Source: Closterium sp. NIES-65 (Eukaryota; Streptophyta; Zygnematophyceae; Desmidiales; Closteriaceae). Taken from it: DNA of 64,000 nt. The notes beneath the pieces were generated by a model that was not told where the DNA came from, searched no databases, and saw only the letters and a list, made by a program, of their open reading frames with translations. This document shows positions 7,278-57,765 of this stretch, piece by piece; positions within the stretch are counted from its first letter, which is position 1; every line of letters begins with the position of its first letter. The translations under genes were made by a program, and so were the position numbers. The DNA lies in contig CANXME010002160.1 of assembly GCA_948144175.1 (NCBI GenBank), forward strand, positions 2,551,501 to 2,615,500. The letters are read 5' to 3'.

Positions 7278-7303
7278 CATCACAAAAATCCTGCGTCCGG
7301 AAA
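7278..7303 (+). repeat. Transposon 1 left inverted repeat (tentative)
   Basis: CATCACAAAAAT followed by TGC and GGAAA matches the reverse complement of 35992-36018 at most positions. The core resembles the transposon 2 terminus (ACATCrCrAAAAA in both). Confidence 0.45.
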
Positions 7304-7334
7304 GCCGATAAAAAGAGTTGCTTTGGAGCTTTGT

Positions 7335-7440
7335 CGAATGATTTATAAACGTAATGTTTTGAACGCTTTTTTGAGAAAGTATAGGGCGCTTTCCAAATGC
7401 TTTGTCGAACGCTTTTCAAATGCTTCTGCAATGCTTCTCT
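7335..7440 (+). repeat. Left subterminal repeats of transposon 1
   Basis: About six copies of an 8-10 base motif, roughly rATGnTTT or ACGCTTTT. The reverse complement of 35841-35900 carries the same kind of motif, as expected of subterminal transposase-binding arrays in CACTA-like elements. Confidence 0.45.
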
Positions 7441-8145
7441 GTTCAAACCTACCAGGTGAAAACCTTCGGCAGAAGTTTGGTTCGAGTTTCTGCAGAGCAA
7501 TTTCGGGGATCGGATATCATTGCAATGTACTCTTTATGGACTTTGAGTTTCATTAAAATAAGCTTAGATTAGAGGCTTGCAAGACGTTACATGTTTAAAA
7601 ATATGTTTAGTTGCCTTATCCTTGCATTCAAAATAAACATAATAGAAGCTTAGGTAAAAGCATATTATTCACACCTAAACATGCACATAAAACAACATCC
7701 TAATCCCACCCTGACTAGTCAAACATACCGCTCGGTAGGTTGATATGCATCATCCTACAACCTGCTTCTCATGCTCCTGTACACTATGTCTCCCACTCCA
7801 CCCCAACTCTCGTGCTCTAGGCCGAGCGTGCCCCTGCGTCCACTGCTTCCTTGCATGTTCTACCCTCTCATGCGTCAGCTTCTCCGCCCCTGGCGCTCTC
7901 CAGTCATGCCTTCACTGCTCCTTGCTTTGTCCTCTCCATCCATGCCTAACCTGCTTGCCCCCTTGCGCCACTACCGTCTTTAATGCTGCCCCCCTTTCTC
8001 TATCCGCTCGTGCCTTTTCTGCTGTCCCCCTTAGCTCTCTCCACTCATGCCTGTTCTGCTGCACCCCCTTGCTTTCTCCTCCAGTTGCCTCGTGTTTTGC
8101 CCCCCCTTGCACACTCCTCACATTGCATCTCCTGCTGCCCCCCAT

Positions 8146-8345
8146 GCTGACTCCACTCTTTTGCCTCTCCTGCTGCCCCCCATGCTGACTCCACTCTTTT
8201 GCTCCTCCTGCCCCCCATGCTGACTCCACTCTTTTGCCGTGGGGCTGCCTCCCATGCTGACTCCACTCTTTTGCCTCTCCTGCTGCCCCCCATGCTGACT
8301 CCACTCTTTTGCCTCTCTTGCTGCCCCCCAAGCTGACTCCACCAA
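8146..8345. repeat. 35-39-bp tandem repeats
   Basis: Five to six imperfect copies beginning CTGACTCCACTCTTTT lie just beyond the 3' end of gene C1. Long open frames across them are repeat artefacts. Confidence 0.85.
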
Positions 8346-8559
8346 TGCCTCTACCTCCGTATTGATGTCTCCTCGCAAGTATGTGCTGCCTCTCTTGCTG
8401 CCCCCCTTTGTAAACTCCACTCATGCCTCATCTGCTGCCCCCCTTGTTTGTCACCCCACCTCTTGGCCCTCTTGCCTCCCCATCTTTTGCCACTCTTGTG
8501 TCTTTTGCCCTTCCTCCGCCCCTGGCCCCCCTGCTTCTCATCCTCATCCTCATCATCTT

Positions 8560-8810
8560 CCTCCTCTTCCTCCTCTTCCTCCTCTTCCTCCTCTTCCTCC
8601 TCTTCCTCTTCCCTCCTGCCTCCCTTGCCTCTGCCTCTCTTGTGCGTTCTGCCCTTCCTCCGCTCACGCCCCCTCTGTTTCTCATCATCCTGCCCCTCCT
8701 CTTCCTCCTCCTCTTCCTCTTTCTCTTCCCTCCTGCCTCCCTTGATTTTCCCTCTCTTCTGCCTTCTGCCCTTCCTAAGCCCTTGCCCCCCCCGTTTCTC
8801 ATCCTCCTCC

Positions 8811-8845
<35 letters not shown>

Positions 8846-8997
8846 CTCTTCCTCATCCCTCTTGCCTCCCCTGATTTTGCATCTCTTGTGCCTTTTGCTC
8901 TGCCTCCGCTCCTGCCCCCACTGTTTCTCCTCCTCCTCCTCCTCCTCCTCCTCCTCCTCCTCCTCCTCCTCCTCCTCCTCCTCCTCCTCCTCCTCGT
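8560..8997. repeat. CTC/CTT trinucleotide arrays in gene C1
   Basis: Several TCC/TTC arrays, the longest at about 8925-8997, encode the poly-Glu tail of C1 on the minus strand. On the plus strand they give spurious poly-Ser and poly-Leu frames. Confidence 0.85.
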
Positions 8998-9699
8998 CAT
9001 CCGTCTCCATGTCCTCCCTGTCATACACCTCCTGCTCTTCCTCCTTCAGGTCCTTCCTCTCCTCATCAGGCTCGGCCGTCCCCTGGAACGCCTCAAATCC
9101 TGACTCGTGAACATACAGCCCACGGTCGCCCCACTTGAAGCCCTGCACGTCTGTGTTGTACACGGGGGTGTGGCATCTAAAGTGGTCTTTGATGATCCAC
9201 CGCACATTACGGTGCAAACCCGTCATCCATTCAGTGTTTTTCCGGTGGGAGTTGGAGACGTTCAAGTCAGTCTTCTTAACCTTTGCCAAGCCCTGGTCAT
9301 CTGAAAAAGCATAGCAAGGTATGGGAAGGAGGGGAAACAAAGACTTCAGTGGACACTCGCGTGCAGAGTTTACGGGCTGCGCAAATAGCCCCACATACCA
9401 TGCCGGCGGGCTAGTAGAGCATGCCAAGCTAGAGCATACTGATAGTTGAGCAATAATGTCTTACCACCATGATTGACCAGGCTATGTGGTAGGCTTTGAC
9501 GCACACCCGGCGCCCGACACAGAGATTCCGAAATGATTCCCGGACCGCATCTACAAATCGGCCGTTGGTGAACGGGAGCCCTTCTCTGTTGTTGCCCCAC
9601 GAGCTGACCCGCTGATTCCTTCCTGCATGCACGCATGACAATGTGTGGCAGCATGTGACATGCGTGATCATGCATGGCATGGTTAGGGGTCGTCCATAG

Positions 9700-10150
9700 G
9701 GTATGGATAAAGGGGAGGGCGGTATAGAATGAATGGAGGGAGGGCGGGAGGGCGGGAAAGAAGGGGAGGGCGGGAGAGAAGGGGTTTAGGGAGAGAAGGG
9801 GAGGGTGGGAGATTTCGGGAAGGGCGGGAGAGAAGGGGAGGGCGGGAGAGAAGGGGAGGGCGGGAGAGAAGAGGAGGGCGAAAGAGAAGGGGAGGGTGGT
9901 AGAGAAGGTGAGGGCGGTAGAGAAGGTGAGGGCGGGAGAGAAGGGAAGGGCGGTAGAGAAGGGGAGGGCGGGAGATTAAAGGGGGGGCGAGAGAGAAGGG
10001 TAGGGCGGGAGAGAAGGGGAGGGCGGTAGAGAAGGGGAGGGCGGGAGAGAAGGGGAGGGCGGGAGATTAAAGGGGGGGCGGGAGAGAAGGGTAGGGCGGG
10101 AAGGAAGGGGAGGGCGGGAGATTAGAGGGGGGGCGGGAGAAGGGGAGAGT
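9700..10150. repeat. Purine-rich minisatellite in C1 intron
   Basis: Imperfect units of about 19-21 bp, GGGCGGGAGAGAAGGGGA, fill the intron between the 9622 and 10361 exon ends. The array is strongly strand-asymmetric: G/A on plus, C/T on the transcribed RNA. Confidence 0.85.
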
Positions 10151-11036
10151 GGGAGAAGAACCAACGTATTGCTGTCATGCGAATGTGTTTGCACATGCGC
10201 TACAAGCTTGGCCAAGGAGCTATGGTATGTAGTTGCATGCTACCCGCCTCATTCACCGCACTTCATGGTATGTACTTCATCATTGTGGGGCATGCACGAG
10301 GGGTGCATGAGCAGACATGTCGATAGGGGAAGTAAAACAGCAACAGCAGTAAGTACTCACTCGGTTGGTATTTTTTCCACACCTTCTTCTTCTTGGTGCC
10401 CATCCAAAGATCGCGGGCACGCAGGCCTTCCACCTTCTTGCCGAAAGTTACGAGCACTCTGCGCTTGAGGTGGAAGCCACGATCGTTCTTCCATGACGTC
10501 CAAGCGCGTTTAAAGACGTCGACGATGTTTTTCTCCTCCATAGCCTCTCGCAGCTGCGTCATGTTGATAATGTGCGTCTCGCTCATAACTTGATACAAAA
10601 CCTGCAGGCGCTGTTCGAGCGTTGGGTAGAAGTCTATGGCATTGTCTGGCCATTCTAGGCACATCCGGTCCCGCCCCACGACGAAATGAACCTATGACGG
10701 ACGGGTGGATTGGAAAAGTAAAATCGAATGATGCCTCCGAATGAAGGGCGGAATTCTGAGGTTGAGAGAGAGGGCTATTGCTATCACTGCGCCGCATGCC
10801 ACCTACACCAACAACAGCACCATGAACAGGAGCTCTGGTTGAGGTAAGGGAGTGATGGGAGAGAGAGGGGGGAGAGAGGGGATGAAATCGTCCAAGTGAA
10901 ATCATATGGGAGAGGGGGGCAGAGTGTGAGCACCGTACGCCCAGCGTTGTTGTTCATGTTTTCCTCTTACAAGGTGTCACAACCCCCTCTGCAGCCCGGC
11001 CCGCTACACGCTGCGCCGCATGCCACACGCGCGACA

Positions 11037-11262: not shown

Positions 11263-12093
11263 TGTTGGTGCAACCCTACGGTTTGCACTCGGCTTGTTGT
11301 CCGTGTGCGTGCATGTGTGTGTGTATGGAATGGTATGAGGGCATGGGATAATATATATTTCATGCTTATAATTGTGTGTGAATGTTGAGTCATGATGTCG
11401 AGTGTATGTGTCGAGTCAATAGCGAGTTATCGCTAGACGCGTGTTACGCGGTCGTTTGTGTCTCGCGCGCGGTTTCTATTTTTGTCGTGCGCGGTTTCTA
11501 TTTTGTCCTGTGTCGAACGTTCGGTGTGTCGCAGGTGTGTGCAGCAGACCCATCAAGAACTCAAGGATGAGTTTGTGATGAAGAGCCTGAGCCTTGGTGT
11601 CAAGCCTCAAGTGATTTTGAAGCTCGCCAAAAGGGTACACCTCAAGATATTGAAGATAGTTACATCACTTTGTGTAGTGTAACATTTCACTTGGTGTAGG
11701 CCCTAGTGAAGGGTAGTTTCGAGACCCTTCGTGGTTGGGGACAGTGTGGCACTGTTCCACATCACTGTACCTCGGCTCTTGGGGTTTGTAGGAGCTGGGA
11801 GTCATTCCCAACTCGTAAACTCTTCATATCTCTTCCTATTTTGTGTTCTAAGACTATAGTGGCTGCCATAGTGCTGTTCGTTCAAACCGACACTGTGTCG
11901 TCAATACTTGGTGAAATTGTGCGATCTAAATTGCGTATTGTAGGCGACGTTCACACGCTCCAGATCCAAGTTGAATCAGGTCATTTAAAGTTGTGACCAG
12001 AACGCTATGAACGTTTGAAGCCGCTGTGCAGAAATCCGGCTGTGCACTCTATCTTTCGTTTTAGGCACATTGGAGCCTATTGTGACTATAACA
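11263..12093 (+). repeat. Copia-2 5' LTR
   Basis: 831 bp, TGTTGG...ATAACA, matching 18038-18868 at the same length. The primer site starts two bases after it. Confidence 0.95.
11348..11360 (+). promoter_or_regulatory. TATA-like box in copia-2 LTR
   Basis: ATAATATATATTT lies about 85 bases into the LTR and is conserved in the 3' LTR at about 18122-18134. It is the most AT-rich point in the LTR and a plausible U3 promoter element. Confidence 0.5.
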
Positions 12094-12095
12094 AG

Positions 12096-12107
12096 TGGTA
12101 TCAGAGC
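12096..12107 (+). other. Copia-2 primer-binding site
   Basis: TGGTATCAGAGC, initiator-Met type, directly after the 5' LTR. Confidence 0.9.
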
Positions 12108-12127
12108 CCCTTGGAGCAGTTTCGACA

Positions 12128-15100
12128 ATGGCTGGACCTGAGGAAAGGGGTGGTAGAGATGCTGGTGGCAAAGGAGAAGCCCAAGCTCAAGGCCAACCCC
12201 GTGATTCAGCCATGGCGCCTGTGCAATCAAGTGTTGGCCCATCTAGGGATGAGCCTAGAGTGTTTGGCCTTGACAAGTTCAATGGTGACAACTTTGCTGA
12301 GTGGTCCTTCAGAATGGAGAACATATTTGACCACTATGACCTGCTGGAGGTAATGGAAGGAACGGAGAAGCGTCCCGAGAACGACCCGGAGAAGAGCCCG
12401 TGGGTGCGAAAGAGCGCACAAGGCTACCTCCTACTTGGGCAAGCGTTGGGGAGCAGCCAAATCCGTCACATCAAGCCTTTCCAGCATGGACCAGAGTAGG
12501 GACCAAAGGCATGGGCTGCTCTCAAGGGTGTACACGCTCCTGCAATAGCGGCGGTAGCTGTGGTGTTGGAACGGCAAATGGCGACACTACGAATTGAAGA
12601 GGATGAAGCGGTTGAAGAAGGGGTGCAGAAATTCTTCGACTTGTTGACGCGGCTTGAGGGAGCTGATTTGAACTATAGTGAGCTCCAAAAGAAGACCAAG
12701 TTGCTGGCCCTACTCCCTGAGTCATGGTCCTCGCTCATCATCAACCTTAATCGCGACTTGCCCCGCCTCTCGCTTGAAGACGTGAAGCGAGCTATCCTTC
12801 AAGAGGATTTCCGCCGCCGTGAGTTGGTGGGTGCGGATGGCGCTGGGGCAGCGAGCATCGGCCGTGGATATGGTCGAGGAAGAGGTAGAGGACGAGGGGG
12901 AGGAAGGTTTGGTGGCAGCAACTTCGGCGGAGGCCGCGGGAGTGGCGGTTACGGCAGCGACGACAAGAGCTACGGACGCGGTCGCGGCCGATTCGACGGC
13001 GAGTGTCACTATTGCCACAAGAGCAGACACATGTGGCGCGACTGCTACAAACTCCCTGATGGTTGGACCCTTGCTCAAGGCCAAGAGGGTATAGGAGCAG
13101 GAGGAGGGAGAGGAAGAGACCGTGGAGGCCGTGGCGGTCGCGGTGGTGGAGCTGCAAACATGAAGAGCGGAGACAACGACAAGGACCCGAGCAACGATCG
13201 GTACCCGGGTCCATTCTACTTCGTGTCGACGCAAGTACCGACTGGTCCAGAGAAGGATGAAGGCTTCGAGGAGCCAGTAGCTGTGGGGAAGGTGACTCTA
13301 CACCCTCTGGACTATTGGGTGATCGATAGTGGCGCTACCTATAGCATGACACCTCGCCCGGACTTGCTCACCGAACTCGAACCGTCACCGGTGAAGCATG
13401 TCACATCAGCTTTGGGGCAGCGAGCGGAGGTGAAAGGCATGGGCAAGGCCATGTTTAAGGGTGCTGATGGGAAGATAGTGGGCCTCAAGAATGTGCTTTG
13501 GGTGCCCAGCCTTGCTGCCAACCTGATTTTTGTGCGGCGGTTGGCAAAGGCCGGCATGGACACGAACTCAAAGGGAGCCAAGACCTACACCGCAAGGCTT
13601 GGCGATCGGATTCTTTGGGACCTTCATGAGGACAGAGATGTCTACAACGAGATGTGGCAGATCCCTGTGGTCCCAATGCCTAAGGAGAGGCAAGTGGCAG
13701 CAAGCGTCAGCACCAAAGGTGGAGCGGTTGGTAGCGGCGATTGCGCGGACGGTCGCGCTAAGGAGAAGGAGTCCAAGAAGTGCAATCTTGGAGGGACCAG
13801 CAAGCTTGGTGAACCTATGGAGAGAGGTGCAGCAGCCAAGGAGCAGCAAAAGGGTGAGGAGAACCCCGAGGCCGCAGCGGAGGAGGACTACGGAGAGAGT
13901 ATGTGGGGCGCTATTGCGAGCGCGGCATTCTCCAATCCAACTTCGGCTACGGGGGAGTGTGATTGGCTCACCTTGCATCGGCGCATGGGGCATGTGGCCC
14001 TGTCCATCTTGCAGCAGCTAGTAAAGAATGAGATGGTTGCTGGCATACGTGTGAAGGGGGAGCCCGATGAGGTACTTGGCTGCCCGACGTGCATGCAAGC
14101 CAAGTTCACCCGTTTCCCATTCTCTAGTTCGGAGGCAACGGCTAAGGCACCACTTGATGAGGTGGTGATGGACGTGGTGGCCCCCTTGAAGCTTGGAGCT
14201 GCTGGAGCTGAGTACTTCCTCACTATTGTGGACGTCTACACCCGTATGACTTGGGTGTACGTGCTGGCCAAGAAGAGCGACGTGGCTGAAACGTTGAAGG
14301 GGGATTGGTTCCCGATGGTGGAGCGGCAACAAGACCATCTAGTCAAGTCAATCCGCACCGATCGAGGGGGGGAGTTCCTGAGCAAGGAGTTTGGGTTGTG
14401 GCTGAAGAAGAATGGTATTCGGTACTCCCTCACCATGCCATACTCCCCTGCAATGAACGGCATCGCCGAGCGAGCGAACCGCACAATCACGGAGGTGGCA
14501 CGCGGGTTGCTCATTAAAGCCGGGCTACCCGACTATTTCTGGCCTGATGCGGTGCGGAGCGCGTTTGTGGCCAAGAACCGAGCCTTGACTCATGTGGGAG
14601 CAGACAAATGGGTGCCCTATGTGGAGTGGCTAGGAAGGAAGCCAAAGGTGGATATGCTTCGGGTGTTCGGGTGCATGTGCATGGCGCTCGTGCCTAAGCA
14701 TCTTCGGCACAACAAGCTTGGTGCCAAGGCGGTGTGGGCCATGCACTTGGGCATGGCTCAAAACAGCAAGGGATGGCTTCTTTGGGACCCATTCACCAAG
14801 AAGTTCTTGGTGAGTAGGGACTGCAAGTTCATGGAGAACTTCATGTACAAAGATTGGAAGGCGGAGAATGAGGCGAAGATAGGCGTGCGGTTTGGGGAGG
14901 TGAAGAGTTCCGGTTTGGAGCATGTGGAGCTGCCTTTGGAGCTGAGCAGCGGCAGCACAACCACAAGGCAATCCTCCTTTGTGAATGGGGGAGAGGAGGC
15001 CAATGATGCAGAGGAAGAAGAGGAGGAGGTGCAGCAAGTGAGCGAGCGTGCACCGTCACTCCCTTCCCGTACTACGAGTGCTCCACGGATTCGAGCCACA

Positions 15101-17960
15101 CCGCAGCAACGCCAAGGCCTTCAAGTCCCTGCAGCTGAGGAGGAAGGAAGAGGCAAGAGGAGAGTTCAACCCCCTGATAGGCTGACCTATGATGCGCTGG
15201 GAAAGCAGGGAAAGACAGCCCTGGCCGGAGCGGCAATGATGGTCGGAGACGACGAGGAGAGTGACTACGAGGAGTGTGCCTTCGCGTTCTTCTCTCCGGT
15301 GGAGATGCCGGGAGAACCAGCAACTCTCAAGGAGGCTTTGGAGAGTAGTGATGCTGAGGAGTGGAAGAAGGCCATGGAGAGTGAGCTGAAGAGCATCAAG
15401 GAGAATGACACATTTGAATTGGTGGAGCTACTGGAGGGGTGTACGGCGATAACGTCCAAGTGGCTCTTCAAAATCAAGTCGGATGCCAACGGCAAGATCG
15501 TGTTGGTGTAAGGGCCTAATAAACTCAAGCTATTAAGACTTTATCACACTTAAAACCTCTCCTCGGGGTCACCTCCAAGGGTCCTTGGGTGCCTGGTACA
15601 AGACCAGCCCCTATCCTCAGGTCCGAGTTTGTAGAGAGAGGGATCAAGAGGGACTTAGTCAAAACAGCAAGAGTACCTTGAACGTCGCGCAGCGTATTGT
15701 GCAGACCGTTGATCGGATTAAGCTGAGAATTTACTATATCGAAGCTCGCTCCAAGAGCTTTAAAATGAACCAAATTGCCTTACGAAAAGTTCTGCCATTA
15801 CGAAGTTATGGCTCGGACAGCGTTTGCCTAGCATTCGAGTGCTAGCGTACTAGCGTTTGACTCAGGTAGCATTCCGCCGTCGCACCGCGTAGAAAGGAAA
15901 TTCCAGCAAGGAAGGAATTCGCTTGAATCAATTTCACTATATCCAGGTACAAACAGAGAAGGAATAAATAGTTCTAGCTAGCAAGGACCTTGGGAATAAA
16001 CCTGGGAACAACCAAGGATGATCCCAAATAATTCCAAGCAACAGAACCAATCTGGCTGGACAAAACAGCAGGTGGTAGGTTGGTAAACAGCCTCTGGTTC
16101 TGTTTTTCCAACCTGGGAAAACAACAACCAGGTTCAGGTCCTAAAAACAGAACCTGTTTTGTCTTTGCCCAACCAGCCAATTGCTGGTTCCGCTGGTTTT
16201 CCCTGGCCCTGTAGCATGCAGATACAGACAAACAACATCCAACCTTCACCTAAATTGTACCCCTATAGTGCCTGCCCTGCAACATTATAGTCAACCAAAC
16301 AAAACAGTACAATTTCGAGTTGGATAGAACTGAATCTGCGCAATCAAGTAAGCCGAACCGCAAAGCTTCCATCTTGGGTTCCTTTGCAAGCTCGTCCTTT
16401 CTGCTTGTACTGTTCATAGCGCGTACAATGTTATGCCGAAGCGCACAATGCGCGAGTACCTGCAAATGCTTCAAGCAAAAATTGCGAAAGCAAACAAACA
16501 CACGAACATTCCATTCATACCCAAATGCATTCGCACACGCATACTCGTACAAAGTGACGGCAGGATGTTGTGCAATGTGAATTTGCACCCAACAGATCGA
16601 GCGCTACAAGTCTAGGCTTGTAGCCAAGGGGTACCAGCAGAAGGAGAAGGTGGACTTCAAGGAGCTGTTTGCCCATGTGGTGAAGCCGACGACGCTGCGA
16701 ACCCTATTCGCGGGAGCCGCCATCAAAGGATGGGTAGTAAAACAAATGGACATCGTAACGGCATTCCTTAACGGCATCCTTGAGGAGGAGATTTTTATGG
16801 CGCAGCCAGAGGGGTTTGATGATGGTAGTGGCAGAGTGTGGAAGCTGAAGAAGGCCCACTATGGGCTGAAGCAGGCCCCTAGGCAATGGTACATGAAGCT
16901 GCGCGAAGTGTTGGAGGGGATCGGCTTCACTCCCTCAACGGCCGATCACTCCTTGTTCATGCTTGGCGAGGGGGAGCAGAGGAGCTTCATGGTGGTTTAT
17001 GTGGATGACATTCTTATATTCTCACCCTCCTCTGACCTTGTGAAGGAGGTGATGCTGAAGCTGCATGACAAGTTCAAGTGCAAGTCCCTTGGTGACTTGA
17101 GCTTCTACCTTTGGCTCCACATCGAACGAGACGTGGAGAAGCGGAGCATGCGAGTGCACCAACGGAAGTACCTGGAGGCGTTGGCTGCCAACTTTGGCCA
17201 GAGTGAAGGTCATGTGGCTACTCCCTTTCCCTCTGGGTTCAAGTGTGTGAAGGGACCAGAGGAGGAGAGCGTTTGTGAAGAGGAGAGGCGCCGTTTTCAC
17301 TCGTTGGTGGGCAGCCTCATGTATGCGGCGGTAAACACCCGACCGGACGTCGTGTTTGCTACCGAGCAGCTGGCTAGGGTTGTGCAATGCCCTAATGAGG
17401 AGCAGGTAGCTGCTGGAATGAGGGTGGCCAAGTATCTTGGCCAAACACCGACCGTTGGGCTGCAATACTCGGCGGCGGCACAAAGGCGCCAAAAGGGCGC
17501 GGATGGTGTTGAATCCGGGCGTTTGTTCCTCACCGCCTACTCGGATGCGTCATATGCATAGGAACCAGAGGACATGACAAGTGTGGGAGGCTTCATATGC
17601 TGTGTTGGTGGAGGCCCAACTGCTTGGGAGAGCAAGAAGCAGGTTGACCAAGCTTTGAGCTCGGTGGAGTCCGAGTACATGGCACTCTTCCGTGCCGTAC
17701 GGGAGATTGTGTGGCAGCGGCGTTTGTTGGCTGAATTGGGGGAGGAGCAGCAAGGACCTACCCCACTCTACTGTGACAGCCAGGGTGCCATTGCTCTTGC
17801 TAAGAACCCTGTGTTGCATGGACTCACAAAGCCCATGAGGGCGAAGTGGCATTGGACGAGGAGCATGATGACCGCGGGTGAAGTTGAGTTGCGGTACGTG
17901 AAGACCACGAGGCAGCCGGCTAACATGATGACTAAGAGGCTGGTGGAGCAGCAGCATTAG
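12128..17960 (+). pseudogene. Copia-2 gag-pol polyprotein, interrupted
   Basis: The frame opens at ATG 12128, shortly after the primer site. In order: gag; an Arg/Gly-rich box (12850-12990); a CCHC knuckle (CHYCHKSRHMWRDC); protease DSGAT (near 13325); the His/Cys integrase finger (LHRRMGH ... CPTC); integrase core with NGIAERANR; an acidic linker; reverse transcriptase from about 15320, resuming after the inserted solo LTR at 16600; catalytic YVDD (near 17000); and RNase H ending at the TAG at 17958. The three breaks are a TAG at 12497-12499 (codon 124), a 1,094-bp solo LTR with its own stop (15509-15511), and a TAG at 17559-17561 in RNase H. The frame is the same on both sides of both TAG codons, so they are point mutations and not shifts. 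Confidence 0.92.
15501..16594. mobile_element. Solo LTR nested in copia-2 reverse transcriptase
   Basis: The insert begins TGTTGGTG and ends CACCCAACA. It is flanked by perfect GATCG duplications (15496-15500 and 16595-16599), and its removal would leave the RT frame continuous. No second LTR, primer site or coding region is visible inside, so a solo LTR left by recombination is the best reading. It contains a hairpin with 12-base arms (16096-16107 and 16143-16154). The parent family is not in this window. Confidence 0.88.
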
Positions 17961-18868: not shown

Positions 18869-18873
18869 AAAAG

Positions 18874-31772: not shown

Positions 31773-31775
<3 letters not shown>

Positions 31776-45495: not shown

Positions 45496-47667
45496 ATGGG
45501 TGGCAACGTGTGCGGGGGGTGCAGAAAAACGTTTCGTGACGACAACAGGCTGCAGTCGCACTTGGCTAGAAGCGCGGCATGCAGGGAGGCGATTCTCGGT
45601 CGTGGTAGAGCCCTCCTCGCAGAGGCATATCTGGAGGCCCGTCAGGTGTTTTTCCGCATCCCTGCCCATACACCCGCCGCCACTGCCGCCAGCGCTGGCA
45701 CCAGCGAGAGGACGGCGGAGAAGAGACCAGCAGCTCCTACAGCCGCCGAGGTAGAAGCTAGTGATGATGACGACCATTCTACCTATAGTGAGCAGAGTTC
45801 GGACGGGGAGATCTTTGACACTCTCACCGCAATATATCTGTTCATTAGGGACGCGGACCTCTCGCGGCGCGAGGTCAACCGATTGCTGCATATCTTCAGA
45901 AATCCGCGATTCAACCTGCGTGCATTGCGTTGCTGGCGCAATTGGCTTGACGTGAGGCGATGGGGGGAAGCCAGGGCGCCGCCAAACATGATACCGTGGC
46001 TGTGCGAGGAGATAGTGGTCAGAGGGCCTTGCGGTCAAACACAGAAGCTCCCCCTGCATTATCGGAACACGGAGGAGGTACGTGCAATATGTTATGAGCG
46101 TAATATGCATCCTGAGGGGGTGCTGCATACTGATGTTGATGGTACACGCAGTCACAGCAAGCTTTGACTCCTACGCAGCTCGTGAAGAAGCTCGTGCGCA
46201 TCTTTGGCGGCGTCTAGGGGCTCGTTACAAAGCCACGGGTTGTTGTTGACCCCAACACAAACGAGCGGATTTACTCCGGCCCTGAGACGGCAAAATGGCT
46301 GGAAGAGGCTTAGGTATGCGATGATTCTCCAGAGGACATGCCCCGCTGCGCTGATGTTTTGGCAGACGTACTCAAGAGCACGAGTTTGTATGTGGCAGAA
46401 GGAGGTGAACGACCCATCAGCCTGGGTGATTGGCGTCATTGTCTACAGCGACGGCACCAACGCAACACGCAATGGGCGCAGGCCATTGCATGCCAATGTT
46501 GGCCGCAGAGTTGGGTGCTTGCTGTCACTGACCGCATCTTTGATTTGCGTGTTCGTTTCTCCGACGGGACGTGGCATGATCGACCGGCTGGTCGAGATTT
46601 TGCCGCAGGCGTATCCGGATCATGCATCGCATTGGCGCTTTCCAAAGATTACATGATTGTCCGCATGCTGGACAATGTGATCATGCGCGGAATGCCGCAC
46701 CACTACAGCACGGAGATGTGGGAGCATACCCACAAGGGGACGGTCAAGATCCCGGTCAGGGGCAGCAACTGGAAGGACATCCCCCGACGCATCGTGGAGG
46801 AGGAGGTGCAGAGAGAGATCTGCAGGGAGGTGGCACAGGACGCGGGTGGCGGGCGTGAATATGCGACGGCGCTGCGCGAGGTGAGACTGTGCGTAGCATA
46901 TCCCTTGCATGACCGTATGATCGTTGGACACGTCAATACCGCGTGACTTGTCCGCGGACACGATCGCAACATACTCTTTGCCTTCCACACCCGCAGGCTG
47001 TTGAGACGATGAAGCCCGTGCTCACGAGGAAGGGACTCACAATGCGGCCGGCGGAGGAGGGAGATGCGGTGATGGGTACCTACCGTACGGCACTTGGCGA
47101 CCTCATGGATGCGCTACCAGGCAGCATGGTGGCTGCCAAGATCACCGCATCTGAGGTCGTGGTGCGTACACATGTGCAAGTGTATCCTCCACCAAGGTTG
47201 CTGTTGTTGAGTGCTTAGGCTCCGTATGTGTGCGTATCGAGTATACACCCGATCTTGCTCCTTATCCCAATGCCCCACTCATGCAGGCCCACACCGCGGT
47301 GGCGATTCCGCGCACCAAAGGCGGAGCACTGGTCCCCAAGGGGGCGTTCATCAAGGCAAGCCCCAAGGAGAAGTGGTTCACTGACTTTGCAATGAAGTCA
47401 GGCAAGAAGGAGGAGTGGTATGCGAAGGCGCTGTGTATTTTCAAGGTGGCGACGACAGAGGGCGACCGGAAGGGGTTTGTGTACATGCGGTGGTATGAGA
47501 GGGCAGGCATATGCCCCCTCACCACCTGCGTGCAGTTGACACCGTCACGCAAGGACACAAGGCACGCAGTGATTGAGGTGGAGAGCATTCTGCGAGTTGT
47601 GCACATTTGCCGCTCTTTCAGCAACCCTGCAGTGTTGCTGCTGAACAAGTTTCTTCTGTGTGAGTGA
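45496..47667 (+). pseudogene. Gene T2: Plavaka/KDZ-like transposase, core deleted
   Basis: Homologous to T1 exon by exon at the ends. Exon 1 (45496-46077) has a Cys-x2-Cys...His...Cys finger (CGGCRKTF) and the LLHIFRNPRF block. Exon 2 (46179-46313) carries TAG at 46215-46217 and a second TAG where T1 has Trp at its end. Exon 3, from 46399, has the first acidic motif VYSDGTN. Then about 125 bases separate it from the block matching T1 exon 7 (ending 46880). Exons matching 34993-35160 (46997-47161) and 35360-35737 (47287-47667) follow intact. The parts equivalent to NDHPES, PDIMH and EHRAM in T1 are absent, so the catalytic core has been lost by internal deletion. Confidence 0.72.
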
Positions 47668-48302: not shown

Positions 48303-49619
48303 ATGGCGTCCCTGGTATCCCTCCTTGAGGCACTGAATGCACCGCCCGAAAAGGTGTTCACTTTCACGGAGTTTCCGTTAATCCCCACACGGGTGCCGTT
48401 AGGCACGTGTGTGGACGAGCGTGAGCAGCTGTCGCGGGAATGGCACATGCCCGTATGCTTTGTGTACAACGCCATAGGACGTGTCCGCAAACCGCCGATC
48501 GTTGTTCTACGACGGGACGACAAGAGGCCAGTACATGAGGGGCGCAAGAAGAATCATGACGTGAAAGTGCGCTACGCCAAGAATGGGCGCTTTTCTAGCG
48601 AGGTGAGCGGGTTCAAAGCTGGGGTTTGTAGGTTGATCGTCGTTGTTTATGAGGTGCAATTTTGGTGGCCATCGTTCTGTACTCATGTTGTCACCACGGA
48701 CATCCGCCGTGTTGTGTGCGCAGTTGTTCACTGAGTTCGTCGACGAGTTAAACGGGGAGTTGCATGCGAAGAACGAGAAGGCGGTGGTGCTGGTGCACAA
48801 CCCTTCGCACACCCTCACCGGGTGTGTGAAACGGACAAGCACGGTGGAGGGGTTTGTCGTGGAGGAGTTGACACGGGTGAAGGTTGTGCAGACATTTGGC
48901 TTGATGCCGGCTGCTGCGTTTTCTGCGATAAATGGTGTTGTGGACACATGGAAGGCAGTTTTCCGGACGTGGTTTCTGCGAACGGCTGTCACGAGAACGG
49001 AGTGGACCCGTGCGGGCATTTTTCCACGGCCGCCGCGGCACGATGTCCTGTACAAGCTGTTCATGGCGTGCAAGTTGACGATGCCGGGGACAATCCAGAG
49101 GATTTGGTGGCGGGCCGGTAGCGTGCCGAAGGGCTGGCTGTCGCGGATGGACAGCTTGAAAGGGAAAGTTGCGGCAGGGATGTTTGACGGTCTGGTGCTG
49201 CAGTTGACAAGTCTGCAGCTGGTGATTGAAGAGTTCAAAGGCAAGTGCAGCAGCACGGCGTTTATGACGGCGTGGGATTTCGTGGGGTGTGACGAAGGCC
49301 TTATTGAGAAGTGGGCGCCAGCGAGGGGTTTGGAGGACGAGTCCGAGGATGAGATTCCGGCATATTTTTGCATTCCGGAGGGGCCGCTAATGCGAGACAG
49401 CCGTAGCTGTCGCTGCGTGAGCCGCATGGTCCATGATGGTTTTGTGAAGCAGGCGGAGGCATTGGGTATTCCACCGCGCGACGTGCCAGAGGAGGCCGGA
49501 GTGGTGAATGAGGAGGTGGTGAGCCGCCTTCGACGCACGCCCACTAAGCGCAACCGGACGGGCCGCTCTAGTGATGAGGGGATCACGTCTGACGCGTCGG
49601 ATGAGGCAGGCCAATCCTG

Positions 49620-49744
49620 TGATGAGAAACGAGAATGAGTGCATAGAGCAGAATGAGGAGTACAAGTGGTAAACCCTAAAGTGTTGTACCCCATATGAAC
49701 TGCCCCACTACAGCCTACACAGACTATAGCATATATGCCTGACA
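49620..49744 (-). repeat. Copia-4 3' LTR
   Basis: 125 bp, TGTCAGGC...CTCATCA read on the minus strand. Confidence 0.93.
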
Positions 49745-49943
49745 CACCCCCATAGGCAAAGTGGGGGAGAACAAGGGGTCACAAGACCAGTCAAGCAAAG
49801 CAAGGCAAGCTCAGGGTGGATCACAACGTCACCACACAGTCCGAGCACAAGAGCAGGGCCACAAGGCCAGTTCACATGCAAGATCATATCTATAAAGGTA
49901 AACAAGCAAGTGCAGGTATAGAAAGAGTACAGTACAAACAAGG

Positions 49944-52900
49944 TCAGGAAGTGAGCAAATGAGGCCAAGTAGGCACAAGACCTAGCATAGCACAGAAGCG
50001 CTGATGATCACAAGGCGGAAGGGCCTTGGTAAAGATATCAGCAGTGTTGGCCTCAGAGGCCACGTAGGTGAGGCAAAGCTGACCACGCTGCTGCAGCTCA
50101 CGAGCCAGGAAGTAGCGAAGAGCAATGTGCTTCGTTCTATGCTCCAATCTGTGCTCCCGACACAAGGCCAGCATGGCCTTGTTGTCTACGTACAGCACTA
50201 GAGGAGAACGAGGCGGCTCTCCTAGGTCAGTCAGCAGGTAGGTGAGCCAGCGCAGCTCCTGTGCAGCCATGGCCCCCGCGTAGATCTCAGCCTTACAGCT
50301 GGAGGTGAGAACAGAAGACAAGCGGGTAGACTGCCACAAAACAGAGCCGGAGCCAAGGCTGAAGGTGTAACCCTGTGACGACCGCTGTGTCGGCTGGTCG
50401 TCAGCCCAAGAAGCGTCTGCGTGAGCAATGAGGACCACTCGGCGTCGCCCTCCAAGCCCTAGCCCCATGCCCGACGTACTGCACACGTAGCACAACACCC
50501 TCTTTGCCGCAGCCATGTGCTCTGGTCGGTGTCTCCCAGGAGCAACATAGCGTGCCAAGATGCTACGACGGTATGCAAGGTCAGGTCGTGTGCAGGTCAT
50601 CAGGTACATGAGGCAGCCAACAAGCTCTGGGTACGGGCCACTCGGCTCTACGGACTCATCCGAAGGCAGAGCTGAGAGCGAGTGGCGAGTAGACAGAGGA
50701 GTGGCCTGAGGCGAGGAGTACGTGAAGTCGAAGCGCTGAAGGACCTGCTGCACCATGTGAGACTTAGTCAGGGTAATGGTGCGCTGTGCTCTGTCCCGGG
50801 TGATCTGCGAGCCAAGGTAGCTGCGCAGTTCACCCAGGTCTGTGCACGTGTGTCTCTTCTGCAGCTCAGACTTCACGTGGGCGAGTCCAGCAGTGTCAGC
50901 AGTGACAAAGACCAAGTCGTCGATGTACACGAGGATGTAGAACGGCGGCAAAGAGGTGTCGGTGCGCAGAAACAGCGACGGGCCGGCTGTAGAAGGAGCA
51001 AACCCAAGAGCCGCAAGTGTAGTCCTCAGTGTGTCGTGCCACTCACGTGGCGCCTGGCGGAGACCATAGACTGGCCGCCGGAGGCTCCACTGGGTACCAG
51101 GAGGAAACAACCCAGTGAAGCCAAGTGGGCGGCGCATCCAGATCTCCTCATGCAGACTGCCCTGCAGGAAAGCAGTGCTGAAGTCAAGAGAGTGAAGCTC
51201 GTAGTCGCGCTGAGCGGCTATGTGCAGCAGCACCCGAAGAGTGGTCATCTTCGGGGTGGGAGAGAAGGTCTGAAAGTAGTCAACTCCCTGCCGCTGACTG
51301 AAGCCTCGAGCCACGTAACGCGCCTTGAAGATAGGCGGAGAACCCGGCGGCCGCTTCACCCTGAAAATCCACATGCCACTGACGATGTTCGCCCCAGGTG
51401 GGGGAACCTCGTCGACGTAGGTGCCTGTGGACTTCCAGGAAGCCATCTCTGCGTCCATGGCTGACTGCCATTGAGAGGAGTAGGGACCCTCGATCGCCTC
51501 AGCGTACGATCGAGGAGTCGGGATGTCTGGTGCATCCGAGTCTCCCTCAGGGGAAATCAGCGTGGACACGAGATGAGGCAAAGCAGCAGCAAAACACTGG
51601 AACTCCTCCTGCCTGTCCTCAAGGACGTCCGTGCTAAGAGCACACCCACCCCCGACGGACGGAGGACAGACAGACTCGGACTCAGCAACAAGACTAGTGG
51701 CGTAGTCTAGACGACAGCGAGCAGCGAAGTCGACAAGCTCAGCCACTAAGGCAGACGCAGTAGTGGACTCAAAGGATTGGTCAGTGACAATAGTGGCCAG
51801 GAGACGCGTGACAGTAGGACTGGCAGCACGAAGAAAGTCAGACTCAGGGTCAGGAAGGATAGGAAGAGAGGACTCTGGAGGAGACGGCAACGGGACACGA
51901 AGGGGAGCAGTGGGAGGACGCAGTGCCATCTGGTGTGTGCCCGGAACCGCAGGAGGACGCGGACGCGGAACACGAAGACTAGTGCGAGCAGTGCAAACAG
52001 GCGACGCAGGACAAGACGCAGGCTCACGACGCTCAGCAAGACCTCCAGTTGGACCAGTGTAGGGAGAAGGAGCAGGTAGAGGGGAGGCGGGCTGTAACTG
52101 TGACTGCGACTGGACAGGCTGTGGACACTCTAAGGGAGGAGCAGGACCAGTAGAAGGCGGGAGACCAAGACCCTGCTCAAGGAGCGGAACGAAGTACGGC
52201 CGTAGCCGCACAGCGCCTCCAAAACCAGCAGGGACAGCACAAGTACCCCCAGTGGCGGCACAAGCGCCAGCAGCACCTCCAGCTCCAACAGCGCCAACTC
52301 CAGCACCCTCAAACGCACAAGCGCCAGCAAAACCACCAGCGCCAACACCCCCAGCAGCTCTAGCTCCAGCAGCTCCAGCAGCACCAGCTCCAGCAGGACC
52401 GGCAGCTCTAGTACCGCCAGCAGTTCCAGCACGACCAACTCCAGCAGCCCCAGTAGCACCCCCAGGCCCAGCACCTCCAGCACCGCCAGTACGAGTACCT
52501 CCGGGACCAGTAGCAACAGTAGTACCTCCTGCTCCAGCAGCACGGCTCCAGCGCCAGGCAAACCACTCGCGCAGCTCTTGTGGAGAGAGTGGCTCTCGCC
52601 TCGACGAAGCACCGCCGGCGGCCACACGAGCAGACCCAGCGCCCTCAGGCTCCGCACCCCCAGACTCCGCACCCCCATGCTCCACACCCCCAGGCTCAGC
52701 ACCTCCAGACTCAGCACCCCCACACTCAGCACCCCCAGTCTCAGCACCCCCAGGCTCAGCACCCTTAGACCCGGCACCCGCAGGCTCAGCACCTCTAGCA
52801 GCAGCAGAGTCAACACCTACCTTGACACGCTCGACTGCGTCTACCTGGGACACACCTGACGGGGCAGGACCCTGAGGGTGGAGGGGGTCTACCGGGGGAG

Positions 52901-55859
52901 GACCTGGTGCAAGGAAGAGCTGCGGCCGGGGAAGGGGCGCGGCACGGTAGGGGAAAAGACGGTAGTAAGGCACCGACTCGTCAAAGGTGACGTCTTGGGA
53001 GGACAGAACACGGCGCAAGGCGGGGGGGTAAAACTGCCAACCAGGCGCGTCAGGGGGGAAGCCAAGGAAGACGCAAGGAACAGCACGGGGGGACAGCTTG
53101 TCCGCAGACAAGTCGCGGACAAACGCCCGAGATCCCGAGACCCGAAACGCAGACACATCGCCAACCTTCCCCGTCCACCGCAAGGTGGGGGAGGTCTCTG
53201 GCAAGGAGACCCGGGGCTGAAGGTTGAGCTGATGCGCCGCGTGCTGAACCGCAAACGGCCAGAGAAAATGGGGGGCAGCCGCATGGATCATGGACGTACG
53301 AGCGACGTCCATGACCATGCCAATGCGGCGCTCAGCAATCCCATTTTGCTGTGGAGAGGCCAGAAGCGTGAAGGTCTGGCGGATGCCCTGTGCACGACAC
53401 AAGGCTCCCAGACGGGCAGAGGAAAACTCCCCGCCTCTGTCAGAGTGCAGACGCAGAACACGAAAGTCGGAGCCGGAACTCTCTCTGAGCTGGAGACGAG
53501 TTGCGCGGATCCAGTCGATCAACACCTCAGTGACGTCGCCCTTGCTGCGCAAGGGGAAGACCATGGTGTAACGCGAGTAGTCGTCAACCACCAACAGGAA
53601 GTAACGCTCGTGACCCTGGCCACGGACGCGGGCGGGGCCCCACACGTCCATGTGAAGAGTCGGCAACGGAGCCTATGTCGGAGGAAACTCGGAGGAGTGA
53701 GGGGCGGCGCGCTGTCGCCCCTCGACGCAGGGGACGCAGGTAGGGGCAGGCCCCGGAGGTAGAGGAGGGAGAGACCGGGGGAGACCAGAGACAAGGACAC
53801 GGGAGGCCATGCCTCGGAGACGAGGCAGGGAGGGGTGACCAAGGCGGTGGTGCCAAAGGAGAGTCTGGTAAGACAGGAGACGACACGAGCAGGGAGCAGA
53901 CTCAGGACTAGACCTGGACGCTGCAGCAAACCCCTGACTCGACGCAGCGACCTGACCAGGCTCAGCAGCCGGAGGAGACTCAGTAGTGAGGGTGTACAGG
54001 CTCGACCCCGGCCGACGGGTGAACGTGGCCAAGTGTTTGCCTGTCCGAGCACACGTGCAGTGGGTCACCCGCTGACTCGGAGGAGTGAACTGGTCAACCC
54101 CCCTATCCTGTAGATCAGCGCCACTCACCAAGTTCGTAGAGAACAAGGGGAGGTAGAGACCTGACAGGGTGCCAGAGGGGGCTGCCAGACACGGTAAGAC
54201 AGTGGAGAAACGAGCAAGGACAGGACCCCCAGAGGGGTCCGCTAGGGAGACCGCAACCGGCCGACTAAGCGGCGTAAGTGTGGTGCGGTCTCGAAAGAAG
54301 GAGCGGGAAGCACCCGAGTCAAGGGGGAAGGTGTGTAAGGCCTGAGCCGACGTGGTACCTGAGAGGGCAGACTCACCAGCACCTGGGGCAGCAGACGCGC
54401 TAGCACCTAGAGCAGCAGCCTCACCAGCACCTTGAGCAGCAGTCTCAATGCCCGGGTCAGGCGGAACACACAGGTAACAGTCACCCTCATAACTATCAGC
54501 AACAGCATACATGGCAGTAAGAATAGCATCAAAGTCAAGATCAAAGATAGCAACCCCCGCCCTAGACAGCTCTCCCCAGCGAGGGATCTCAGAGGCCTCA
54601 GGGAACTGGTGACGCCACGCATCCATCAAGCGGCCGAAACAGCGCTGGGTGGAGTGCGGGCCCCCGCACTGCTCACCAGCGCGGTCGCCGGTGCGGAGAA
54701 CGTAGGTGCAAAGACCCGTACCCCAACCGCGCTGACGCGCAGCGTACCACTCACGAAGCTGCTGAGGGGACAGGGTCTCACGACTGCGCTGCTGCTGCTG
54801 GCGCGTACCTCCACTGGAGCCACTCCTCTGCGCAGAGCTGAGACCAGGTCCATTGCTGCCGCCGCCGCCTCCGCCACCTCCGCTGCCTCCGCCGCCTCCA
54901 CCACCTCCGCCGCCTCCGCTCCCTCCGCCTCCGCCGCTGCCTCCTCCGCCTCCACTGCTGCCACCGACACCTCCACCCCCGCCACCACTCCCAGCACCAC
55001 CCCCACCCCCTCCACTGCCTCCACCACCACCTCCACCGCCCCCGCTAGCCCCTCCAGCGCCCTTGCCCCCCTTGCCCTTGCCGGTGCGGCGTCTCCCGCT
55101 AGGGGTAGACGCAGCGCCGACCGACTCAAAACCAGCGAGGTCGGCCGCAGCAGCAGAAGCAATAGAGGGCAAGAGGGGGGAGGGGGAACACCCCTCAAAG
55201 ACGGGGGTGCGAGGGTCACTGCGAGAGGCTCCTACAGCGACTATGCTCTTCTTTGCTGCTAGGAGGCCCTTCTCAAGGAGGCCAACGGTGAGAGTGGTGG
55301 GGCAAACTGAGAGGAAGTGGTCTCTGACTACGCGAAGAGAGTCAGGGAGCCAGGTGACTATGTAGTAGAGGGTGATGTACATGGGGGGGGGGGGGGAGTT
55401 CTTGGCGCAGAACTCAGCAGGAAGCGCAGCGCGGTAGCGAGTGTCACTAGTGCGGAGGTGCATAATGAGGTCAGCGAGTGTGGGAAAGGCAGCAAGGTCA
55501 GGGAAGAGGTACGGTAGCATGAGGCGGCTCAGTGCAGCAGTGGCAGGGGAAGAGTAGCGTGCAACTACAACGTCGTACAAGGTCTGAGCACTCTTGTACT
55601 GGCTAAAGTGTGCACGCTCAGTGGTCGGTAATTGGGGACGCACAGCAAGGCGAGCAGCAGCATCGCGTGTGGCCCACTGTGAACGACTAGTGCTGTCAGC
55701 AGTGGCAAGCGGGGCAGGAGAGACACCAAAGGTGAGATCGAACAGAGAGAGTCCGTCTGCCCTATCGCACTGGAGAAATAGCTAGAGGTCATCGACCCAG
55801 ACCTCAAAGTCAACGGCACGGCCCTCAGCATCAAAAGTAAGGACACTGGGGGTAGCCAT
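49944..55859 (-). pseudogene. Copia-4 gag-pol polyprotein with two nonsense codons
   Basis: A single frame of 1,972 codons from ATG at 55859 to TGA at 49944. In order: gag; a basic patch and a long Gly-rich linker (about 55080-54850); a Cys/His motif C-x13-C-x3-H-x4-C (near 54700) in place of the normal CCHC knuckle; protease LDSGAS; His/Cys integrase finger (LLWHHRLGH ... CVPC); integrase core; a linker of GGAEP-type pentapeptides; RT with YIDD (near 50925); RNase H with DNKAML and the conserved C-terminal ADIFTKALP. Stops: TAG at 55784-55782 (codon 26, Gln in copia-5) and TAG at 53675-53673 (codon 729, Glu in copia-5). Otherwise intact, so it decayed recently. Confidence 0.93.
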
Positions 55860-55929
55860 GACTGTAGTGGCCTAGCAGGAAGTGAGCTCACCAGTCCGAG
55901 GAAGGAGGGCCGGGGAGTACCGGTAGGAA

Positions 55930-56870
55930 CAGCAGCAGCTCGGCGGCTCGGCGGCAGGGCGGCTCGGCTGCTCGGCGGCTCGGCGGCTCGGCGGCAGGGT
56001 GGCTCGGCTGCTGGGCGGCTCGGCTGCTGGGCGGCTCGGCGGCAAGGCGGCTCGGCTGCTGGGCGGCTCGGCGGCAGGGCGGCTCGGATGCTGGGCGGCT
56101 CGGCTGCTGGGCGGCTCGGCGGTAGGGCGGCTCGGCTGCTGGGCGGCTCGGCGGCAGGGCGGCTCGACTGCTGGGCTGCTCGGCGGCTCGGTCGCTGGGC
56201 GGCTGAGCAGTGACAAGGCCGCTAGGGGAGGGCGACGGGGCCGCAGGTGACGGCAACGGGGCCGTAGGTGGCGGCGAGGCCGCAGGTGGCGGCTGCGTGG
56301 CCGCAGGTGGCGGCGACGGGGCCGCTGGTGGCAGCGACGGGGCCGCACGTGGCGGCGACGGGGCCGCAAGGGGCCTAGACGGGGCCGCGGAGGGGCCGTA
56401 AGGGGCCGAGACAGGGCCGTAGCGGGGCCACAAGGGGCCTAGACGGGGCTGCGGAGGGGCCGTAAGAGGCCTAGACGGGGCCGTAGCGGGGCCGTAAGGG
56501 GCCTAGACGGAGCCGCGGAGGGGCCGTAAGGGGCCTAGACGGGGCCGTAGCGGGGCCGCAAGGGGCCTAGACGTGGCCGCAGAGGGGCCGTAAGGGGCCT
56601 AGACGGGGCCGTAGCGGGGCCGCAAGGGGCCTAGACGGGGCCGCGGAGGGGCCGTAAGGAGCCTAGACGGGGCTGTAAGGGGCCGGAAAGGGCGCCGCGA
56701 GGGGCCGAAAGGGGCCGCGCGAGGGCCGTAAGGGCGACGCGAGGGGCCTTACGGGGCCGTAAGGGGCCGTAAGGGCGGCGCGAGGGGCCGTAGAGGGCGG
56801 CGCGAGGGGCCGTAAGGGCGGCGCGAGGGGCCGTAAGGGCGGCCAAAGGGGCCGTGAGAGGGGCCACTAA
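55930..56870. repeat. GC-rich minisatellites in copia-4 leader
   Basis: Two arrays in the untranslated leader: GGCGGCTCGGCTGCT-type units at about 55930-56200 and GGGGCCGTAAGGGGCCTAGAC-type units at about 56330-56870. Confidence 0.88.
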
Positions 56871-56986
56871 GGGCGGCTCGAAGGTAGGGAGGGCACACAG
56901 AGCGCGACTCGCGCAGGAGTGAAGCGCGCTCCGGGCAGGAAAAAAAAGTATCGTGGTGGGCCCTAGGTAGCGTTCCCACTAGGGAA

Positions 56987-57000
56987 CCTGCTCGATACCA
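56987..57000 (-). other. Copia-4 primer-binding site
   Basis: TGGTATCGAGCAGG on the minus strand, directly next to the 5' LTR; identical to the copia-5 site and different from the TGGTATCAGAGC used by copia-1 and copia-2. Confidence 0.8.
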
Positions 57001-57125
57001 TGATGAGAAACGAGAATGAGTGCATTGAGCAGAATGAGGAGTACAAGTGGTAAACCCTAAAGTGTTGTACCCCATATGAACTGCCCCACTACAGCCTACA
57101 CAGACTAGAGCATATATGCGTGACA
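57001..57125 (-). repeat. Copia-4 5' LTR
   Basis: 125 bp, matching 49620-49744. Confidence 0.93.
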
Positions 57126-57187
57126 TCCCGGAAGGGGGTGGTGCTGTTCCCAGTGGAGGATGACAAAGAGAGCGTCGTACGCTTGGT

Positions 57188-57740
57188 CTAGGGCTATAGG
57201 GTGGCTATGCTTTATCTTAGTGGTATGGGGGGGCTGAACATAGGGAGCACTATGCGACGATGGCGTCACAATGTTTCAGCTAATGTGTGTGTTCGGATTG
57301 CATGAGCTGTGAATTGGGCGATATTATTTCCATCTGTTGTGTTTGCTACTCAATAACGAATGCACTTATGTATCACGTGTGTTGTTTTGTCGGTTAGCGT
57401 TTAGTAGTTTGGGGATAGGCTGCAAACCCTAAGGGGATCGTTCTCGCGGCAGTGTACAAACACATAACGCAAAACACAAGCGAGTGTTCCTTGTATGCGG
57501 TGCCAAGGTATGCTTTTTCGTCGAACCGCGTCTGCCAATGTGCGAGATTTCCCGAGCCGCTCTGGAATTTGGACGTTCCGAAGCGCAAACCGCCTGGCAT
57601 CCGGCTGCCTTTCTCAGTGTGCGGGACTTAGTGGCATTTTGGGTAAGATGCAATTTCGGGTTGTTAATTTTCGGATACTATTCTGCAGCTTTTGTGCAAC
57701 TTTCCTGCAACTCTGATACTTTAACTCGAAAATTGGCCAA
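57188..57740. other. No gene recognised
   Basis: 3' flank of gene D up to the right end of transposon 2. A few TTGCAAC-like motifs near 57680-57715 are the only structure seen. Confidence 0.5.
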
Positions 57741-57765
57741 ACCCTTTTTCGCGATGTACAGGTCA
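57741..57765 (-). repeat. Transposon 2 right inverted repeat (tentative)
   Basis: The reverse complement gives TGACCTGT and then ACATCGCGAAAAAGGG, matching 36515-36537 apart from a GT insertion. Confidence 0.5.

Follow-up and report, generated by a model that had tools for sequence, protein, structure and literature searches.

What kind of genetic element accounts for three genes that occur twice, side by side, in the same order and on the same strands in one stretch of the genome of Closterium sp. NIES-65? Closterium is a single-celled green alga (a streptophyte), near the land plants. The stretch (hereafter the window) is 64,000 nucleotides long (assembly GCA_948144175.1, contig CANXME010002160.1, positions 2,551,501 to 2,615,500 of the forward strand), and the three genes are called C (a helper of unassigned function), U (an Ulp1-type protease) and T (a transposase). 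An initial annotation, made from the letters of the DNA, attributed them to a family of multi-gene transposons, 20–29 kb in size, that carry a protease and a helper. Independent copies elsewhere in the genome support this answer, with corrections to size, gene content and transposase class. The window holds two Plavaka-type DNA transposons, E1 and then E2, with 503 bp between them (36019–36521). The Plavaka lineage is related to CACTA/EnSpm, and transposases of Plavaka and of the CACTA group cut and paste DNA between inverted ends. E1 and E2 very probably represent two families of a Closterium lineage of this kind, with the set C-U-T in common and, in E2-type elements, one gene more (P), at the end where T lies. 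The two transposons and their terminal inverted repeats (TIRs) are as follows.

7278–36018, no strand assigned: E1, Plavaka-type transposon, 28,741 bp, with inverted termini CATCACAAAAAT and a 2-bp flanking repeat AA/AA
7278–7289, plus strand: left TIR of E1
36007–36018, minus strand: right TIR of E1
36522–57756, no strand assigned: E2, Plavaka-type transposon, 21,235 bp, with inverted termini CATCGCGAAAAAGGG and a flanking repeat TA/TA
36522–36536, plus strand: left TIR of E2, followed by TTGCAA-rich subterminal repeats
57742–57756, minus strand: right TIR of E2

The window has four occurrences of the 11-mer CATCRCRAAAA, all facing inward and each at one of the four element ends; shuffled sequences lead one to expect 0.06. 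The outer limits first proposed for the pair, 7278 and 57765, were thus almost exact. The flanks of E1 and of E2 do not align with each other. In each element C and U are on the minus strand and T is on the plus strand, so the coordinates agree with the order and strands originally claimed. The pairwise homology also stands: between E1 and E2 the T exons match with expectation values (E) of 3e-19 and 5e-18, the C exons match with E=1e-5 and 4e-6, and the two U genes have the residues H, D, Q and C in common. The claim of matching exon structure is true in part: by our own splice models, which define the exon borders, two T introns lie at equivalent codons, a U intron lies directly before the motif SHxSL in both elements and one C intron is in nearly the same place, but the other introns are not matched. 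Since protein identity between E1 and E2 is only about 25–42%, and a nucleotide comparison at E up to 0.01 found no match between them apart from the retroelements, they are regarded as distant relatives and not as recent duplicates. The size of 20–29 kb proves to be inflated by nested retroelements; with the copia elements and the TRIM-like elements (terminal-repeat retrotransposons in miniature) described below subtracted, the length of E1 is about 19.6 kb and that of E2 about 12.1 kb, giving a native size of about 12–20 kb. That two elements of different families lie in the same orientation across 36019–36521 may be coincidence or may reflect a local preference.

The gene that determines the class of the elements is T.

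28461–35734, plus strand: T1, Plavaka transposase gene of E1, nine exons in the splice model, with one in-frame TGA at 30888–30890
45496–47664, plus strand: T2, Plavaka transposase gene of E2, with an internal deletion

The T1 exon at 30199–30597 matches the Plavaka profile PF18759 with 26.9 bits (cut-off 26.3), and a relative of T, protein P0001, matches the same profile with 96.1 bits. In the T1 model the nine exons correspond to nine stretches of P0001, whose reading is open where T1 has the TGA. The Plavaka/CMCT clade is marked by D-D-E with C(2)C and H(3–4)H between the second D and E. The motifs D1, D2, C(2)C, H(3)H and E are all present in T1 and P0001, and these motifs can also be read in E4 and E5, two further copies described below. 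In T2 three of the five (the second D, C(2)C and H(3)H) are gone; compared with E4, the sequence between 46483 and 46500 has been deleted, and the three T2 open reading frames (ORFs) scanned gave no match to PF18759. All five protein-database matches of T at E up to 0.001 are from Closterium. T is thus classed, by profile and motifs, as a Plavaka transposase. The initial annotation had spoken of a KDZ/Plavaka type; the Plavaka half of this is borne out, whereas the KDZ (Zisupton, Dileera, Kyakuja) profile matched none of the ORFs scanned. KDZ identity was rejected on this ground and because the duplications are of 2 bp, those of Zisupton being of 8 bp. Because T1 has a premature stop, T2 has lost its core and the C gene of E2 holds a TRIM-like element, neither copy in the window is likely to be autonomous, and each would move, if at all, by means of proteins made elsewhere.

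If E1 and E2 are transposons, copies with the same ends and genes should exist elsewhere in the same genome. The terminus pattern CATCRCRAAAAA was found at 742 places in the 874-Mb genome, and its reversed control pattern at 352. The form CATCGCGAAAAA accounts for 26 among the places listed and makes three inward-facing pairs on the same contig, of which two, picked by their TIRs alone and taken whole, are E3 and E4. For E5 and E6 the far ends were obtained by scanning nine stretches for a terminus with up to 3 mismatches, which yielded one candidate each for E5 (also present as locus L023) and E6 and none in the other stretches.

Contig C120, 26009–53434: E3, 27,426 bp, duplication CC (or CCC), with C, U, T and P in the mirror order of E4
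Contig C442, 66306–97219: E4 (loci L014–L015), 30,914 bp, duplication TG, with C and U on the minus and T and P on the plus strand
Contig C212, 683786–697151: E5, 13,366 bp, duplication TC, in the order P-T-U-C
Contig C191, 215348–222397: E6 (locus L020), 7,050 bp, duplication CA, with P, the end of T and C kept

Thus, the further copies anticipated in the same genome exist: E3, E4 and E5 are bounded by TIRs and contain the same genes in the same order. Duplications of 2 bp (AA, TA, CC or CCC, TG, TC and CA) flank all six elements of which both ends are known. E2 and E4 are collinear throughout, one terminus to the other, at about 96% identity, and their flanks differ: between the left terminus and position 49617 there are six blocks of 95.4–98.0% (11,095 aligned positions, 96.3% identical overall), and the alignment resumes from 57125 to 57756 at 95.3 and 96.6%. 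The boundary falls at the same base in E2, E4 and the loci L019 and L027, and the next bases outward differ. Among more distant copies, the P proteins of E2, E3 and E5 are only 30–37% identical and stretches of T 36–82%, and gene order and orientation are kept. E6 is 99.6% and 99.7% identical to E5 over 3.3 and 3.7 kb, the 6.3 kb between these being missing, together with U and the rest of T; the deletion junction is a 3-bp overlap. This near-identity suggests recent activity, and E6, which has C without U and with only part of T, shows that gene loss occurs.

The remaining terminus-like places are more varied. The two ends of the third CATCGCGAAAAA pair, on contig C233, are separated by 97 kb; C is present at the left one (L027), and the right one (L028) has none of C, U, T and P within 10 kb. 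Inward-facing pairs of other terminus forms also occur, for example on contigs C32 and C202. Apart from E3 and E4, 22 CATCGCGAAAAA places are listed; 20 of these were examined, 10 kb inward each, and eight have C, U, T or P in that interval, P or C always being the first gene met. T is present in two of eight 3-kb loci around the pattern, and in one of these (L005) the pattern lies inside T by chance. At L001 (contig C3, about 107,068), a T-like transposase lies near a CATCACAAAAAA terminus, as in E1, and no P was seen in the 3-kb locus; this is perhaps another E1-like family.

The second gene of the common set encodes a predicted protease.

26265–27403, minus strand: U1, Ulp1/C48-type protease gene of E1; Peptidase_C48 14.7 bits, below the cut-off of 20.7, with the H-D-Q-C residues present
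42309–44955, minus strand: U2, Ulp1/C48 protease gene of E2 with an AP2-like domain; Peptidase_C48 26.9 bits, cut-off 20.7

The protease-site residues H, D, Q and C align between U1 and U2 and are also kept in E4 and E5. U1 is 75–98% identical, by stretch, to protein P0053 of strain NIES-53, and the 181 residues at the C-terminus of U2 agree at 99.4% with protein P0054 of NIES-65; protein P0051 reaches 48.4 bits against Peptidase_C48. In relatives of U2 an AP2-like domain stands behind the protease. The corresponding part of U2 is split over two frames, and the AP2-like profile of the relatives matches the ORF 42309–43085 with E=8e-51. The solved structure of the TEM1 AP2 domain matches the AP2-like part of protein P0010 at E=2e-4. 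Database searches for U and for C each scored about 8,000 candidates (for C, those sharing most words); that for U gave at least seven matches at E up to 0.001, all those listed being from Closterium. U is thus assigned to the Ulp1/C48 proteases, followed in E2-type elements by an AP2-like domain.

The third gene, the helper C, is less easily placed.

8354–10691, minus strand: C1, helper gene of E1, function unassigned, in stretches of about 10691–10266, 9720–9465 and 9376–8354; homologous to C2
37778–41473, minus strand: C2, helper gene of E2, with one exon broken by a TRIM-like element

C1 is 60–86% identical by stretch to protein P0025 of NIES-65, and C2 is 86–98% identical by stretch to P0006, P0009 and P0010. 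The place of the TRIM-like element is empty in E4 and is read through by the models P0009, P0010, P0011 and P0013. A profile of C1 and C2 (E up to 0.001) matches at least 43 proteins, all those listed being from Closterium. The C ORFs of the window contain no Pfam domain above its cut-off; a Pfam scan of 50 C- and U-type proteins found only C48, AP2, Phi_1 and DUF3301, in one to three members each, and NCBIfam gave no match for four proteins. The sole match of C in a search of solved-structure sequences, DEK (E=0.14 and 0.17), was not used.

In nine of the 43 C models listed, sequence of the U tail or AP2 type precedes C (in one over only 38 residues), which shows the succession of U and then C in four strains. 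In addition, one C and one U model are on contigs of equal size, both in NIES-64 (293,566 bp) and in NIES-65 (5,436,613 bp). Models P0007, P0010, P0012 and P0013 fuse U and C. The C models P0009 and P0015 begin in a similar manner (METS or MDTS); because of this start U and C are provisionally treated here as two genes.

The gene set C-U-T as first described is confirmed but incomplete, as E2-type elements have a fourth gene.

48303–57191, plus strand: P, fourth gene of E2, related to DDE_1 (pogo), with its second exon broken by copia element B

The copy in the window scores 16.4 bits against DDE_1 (E=0.0068), below the cut-off of 22, and the copy in E5 scores 28.2 bits (PF03184), above it. 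The window's P is 91–95% identical in E4. P adjoins T in E2, E3, E4 and E5 and at the loci L020, L021 and L022; at L019 it is the only one of the four genes within 10 kb. As regards the catalytic aspartates of pogo transposases, at what we take to be the position of the DN motif the window copy of P reads VHN and the E5 copy TIH.

The case that E1 and E2 are transposons rests on the inverted CATCRCRAAAA termini, the 2-bp duplications, a transposase whose relatives keep the D-D-E and zinc-ligand motifs and the inheritance of the genes together; also, the sequence that distinct copies have in common stops at the termini. Several observations weigh against this case, or against parts of it. Many CATCRCRAAAAA sites must be due to chance, since the reversed control is about half as frequent (352 versus 742). 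At 12 of the 20 CATCGCGAAAAA sites none of C, U, T and P was found within 10 kb inward, and the family of E1 itself yielded no second full copy. Strong enrichment of TTGCAA repeats is confined to the left end of E2 and does not recur at the right. P is not in E1, where there is no room for it, since T1 ends 284 bp before the terminus. A profile search of E1 found no AP2-like part, so that targeting by AP2 would not be universal, and the AP2 match of P0010 (PF00847, 29.3 bits) is below the Pfam cut-off of 33.3. The two structure predictions for C are of low confidence (mean pLDDT, the predicted local distance difference test, of 42.7 and 41.5). Finally, C is found in far more protein models (at least 43) than U (at least seven) or T (five).

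This last imbalance would be expected if C and U formed one small transposon and T, with or without P, another, two or more such independent units lying next to each other by chance. The three protein searches were unequal in sensitivity, however, the outer TIR pairs of E3, E4 and E5 enclose all of the genes, and E2 matches E4 in the same order from one end to the other; this explanation is very improbable. Still less credible is an endogenous virus or Polinton-like element, which the large size and the protease gene might bring to mind: the selected ORFs scanned against Pfam include no capsid, polymerase or packaging gene (retrotransposon genes aside), patterns matched 44 (T) and 65 (C) stretches of viral contigs with no relative confirmed, and a Plavaka transposase with 2-bp duplications speaks against it. 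A more serious rival accepts the transposase and the ends as real and regards U, C and P as captured fragments of host genes (transduplication, as in Pack-CACTA and Ulp1-bearing Mutator elements) with no role in transposition. Plant transposons frequently pick up Ulp1 domains (PMC2528002, PMC13317346), and E6 retains its ends without U and part of T. Against capture, the four genes stay together with order and orientation kept in E2, E3 and E5 although their P proteins are only 30–37% identical, and the protease-site residues are kept in U1, U2, E4 and E5. Capture is thus considered unlikely.

If the elements are multi-gene transposons of the Plavaka type, T would bind the ends and cut and join the DNA. 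U may be a protease for the small ubiquitin-like modifier (SUMO) that is brought to the DNA of the element by its AP2-like domain; there it could strip SUMO from silencing or repair proteins and in this way protect or license the element. An anti-silencing role of this kind is put forward tentatively, and a role in the release of the transposition complex or in the processing of element proteins seems somewhat less probable still. C and P might serve as partners that bind DNA or give structure, perhaps acting at the subterminal repeats; that they act at the ends is a guess from their position and, for P, from its descent.

The closest tested parallel for U as a putative targeted SUMO protease is VANC of the Arabidopsis VANDAL elements, an anti-silencing protein encoded by the transposon, whose targets are often tandem repeats (PMC5735166). 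VANDALs may resemble the Closterium elements in encoding a sequence-specific protein (VANC) and do so, in their KIU members, in having an Ulp1 domain, there of unknown role (PMC13317346), but they belong to the Mutator group. The CACTA-ULP elements of grapevine and rice likewise have an Ulp1 domain inside a CACTA-group element, but with a Tnp2-type plant CACTA transposase and, in the passages concerned, no mention of C or P (PMC2528002). As for the transposase, fungal PlavakaB (CMCT clade; Kojima 2025) has termini 5'-CATCA..TGATG-3' and 2–3 bp duplications (PMC12730594). It is similar to the Closterium elements in its Plavaka-family transposase, CATCA-type ends and 2-bp duplications; E1 (CATCAC) agrees with its terminus exactly and the E2 type (CATCGC) is one base off. 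It differs in its fungal host and in having a TET/JBP dioxygenase in contrast to C, U (Ulp1-AP2) and P; the main text of that paper makes no mention of Ulp1, protease or SUMO. EnSpm-Plavaka of Auxenochlorella is a Plavaka element in a green alga, but no accessory genes are named in the passage concerned (PMC12636532). The giant repeats of Amoebidium are very large and have a Plavaka transposase, whereas their cargo consists of gene clusters, many of them for tyrosine recombinases (PMC11244446). In brown and red algae, giant EnSpm and KDZ elements are similar in size (10–30 kb), in having accessory genes and nested insertions and in their decayed transposases, but their accessory genes are others, and the main text is without Ulp1 or AP2 (PMC12477816).

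Precedents thus exist for giant EnSpm/KDZ elements with several genes and for CACTA elements that carry Ulp1; the combination of Plavaka with C, U and P was not found in the literature searched. No paper joining Plavaka and Ulp1 was found, subscription journals being mostly outside the scope of the search; and among titles on Closterium transposable elements, giant transposons and Plavaka in streptophyte algae, none describes the C-U-T-P set. Repeats make up 47–64% of Closterium genomes (PMC10407611). Plant transposons often carry Ulp1, and copies with the protease joined to a DNA-binding-like domain in an alga that can be cultured would render the anti-silencing idea testable.

The retroelements that enlarge E1 and E2 are as follows (LTR, long terminal repeat).

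11263–18868, plus strand: copia LTR retrotransposon A, nested in E1; LTRs 97.5% identical
21197–22755, no strand assigned: TRIM-like element nested in E1; perfect 5-bp duplication GAACG
39430–41072, no strand assigned: TRIM-like element nested in C2 (E2); perfect 5-bp duplication CTCAT
49620–57125, minus strand: copia LTR retrotransposon B, nested in P (E2); LTRs 97.6% identical

The largest ORFs of the window are explained by four copia retrotransposons or pieces of them (2.5–5.9, 11.26–18.87, 49.62–57.13 and 58.96–64 kb). BLAST-linked ORFs at 2.5–5.9, 12.5–18, 50–56 and 59–64 kb had been considered as T genes and were rejected, being copia. Copia A sits inside a 149-bp tandem array of E1, with no 5-bp duplication seen. 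The 5-mers flanking copia B agree at four of five positions, and its site is empty in E4 and L019; in E4 both this site and that of the TRIM-like element in C2 are empty with the overlap of the target duplication. E4 has a copia of its own, 82% identical to copia B, at the site corresponding to 57399–57403 of E2, near the P end of the element, and further copia-like sequence within T. The TRIM-like elements and copia B have a common polypurine tract and LTR start (22558–22605, 40875–40922 and 49719–49766), and because of this the former may be non-autonomous relatives of copia B. Further copia elements lie beside the pair, at 2498–5895 and 58959–64000; the second of these, to the right, is a relative of copia B and has the opposite orientation.

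Short tandem repeats are abundant in the Closterium elements, in E1 most of all. Its long minisatellite arrays, at 25087–26380 (22-bp units), 31700–33700 (about 20 bp), 18793–19318 (149 bp) and 9717–10175 (18 bp), fall in introns or between genes of the splice models. Just beyond the right end of E2 there is a long AGT microsatellite (57990–58315).

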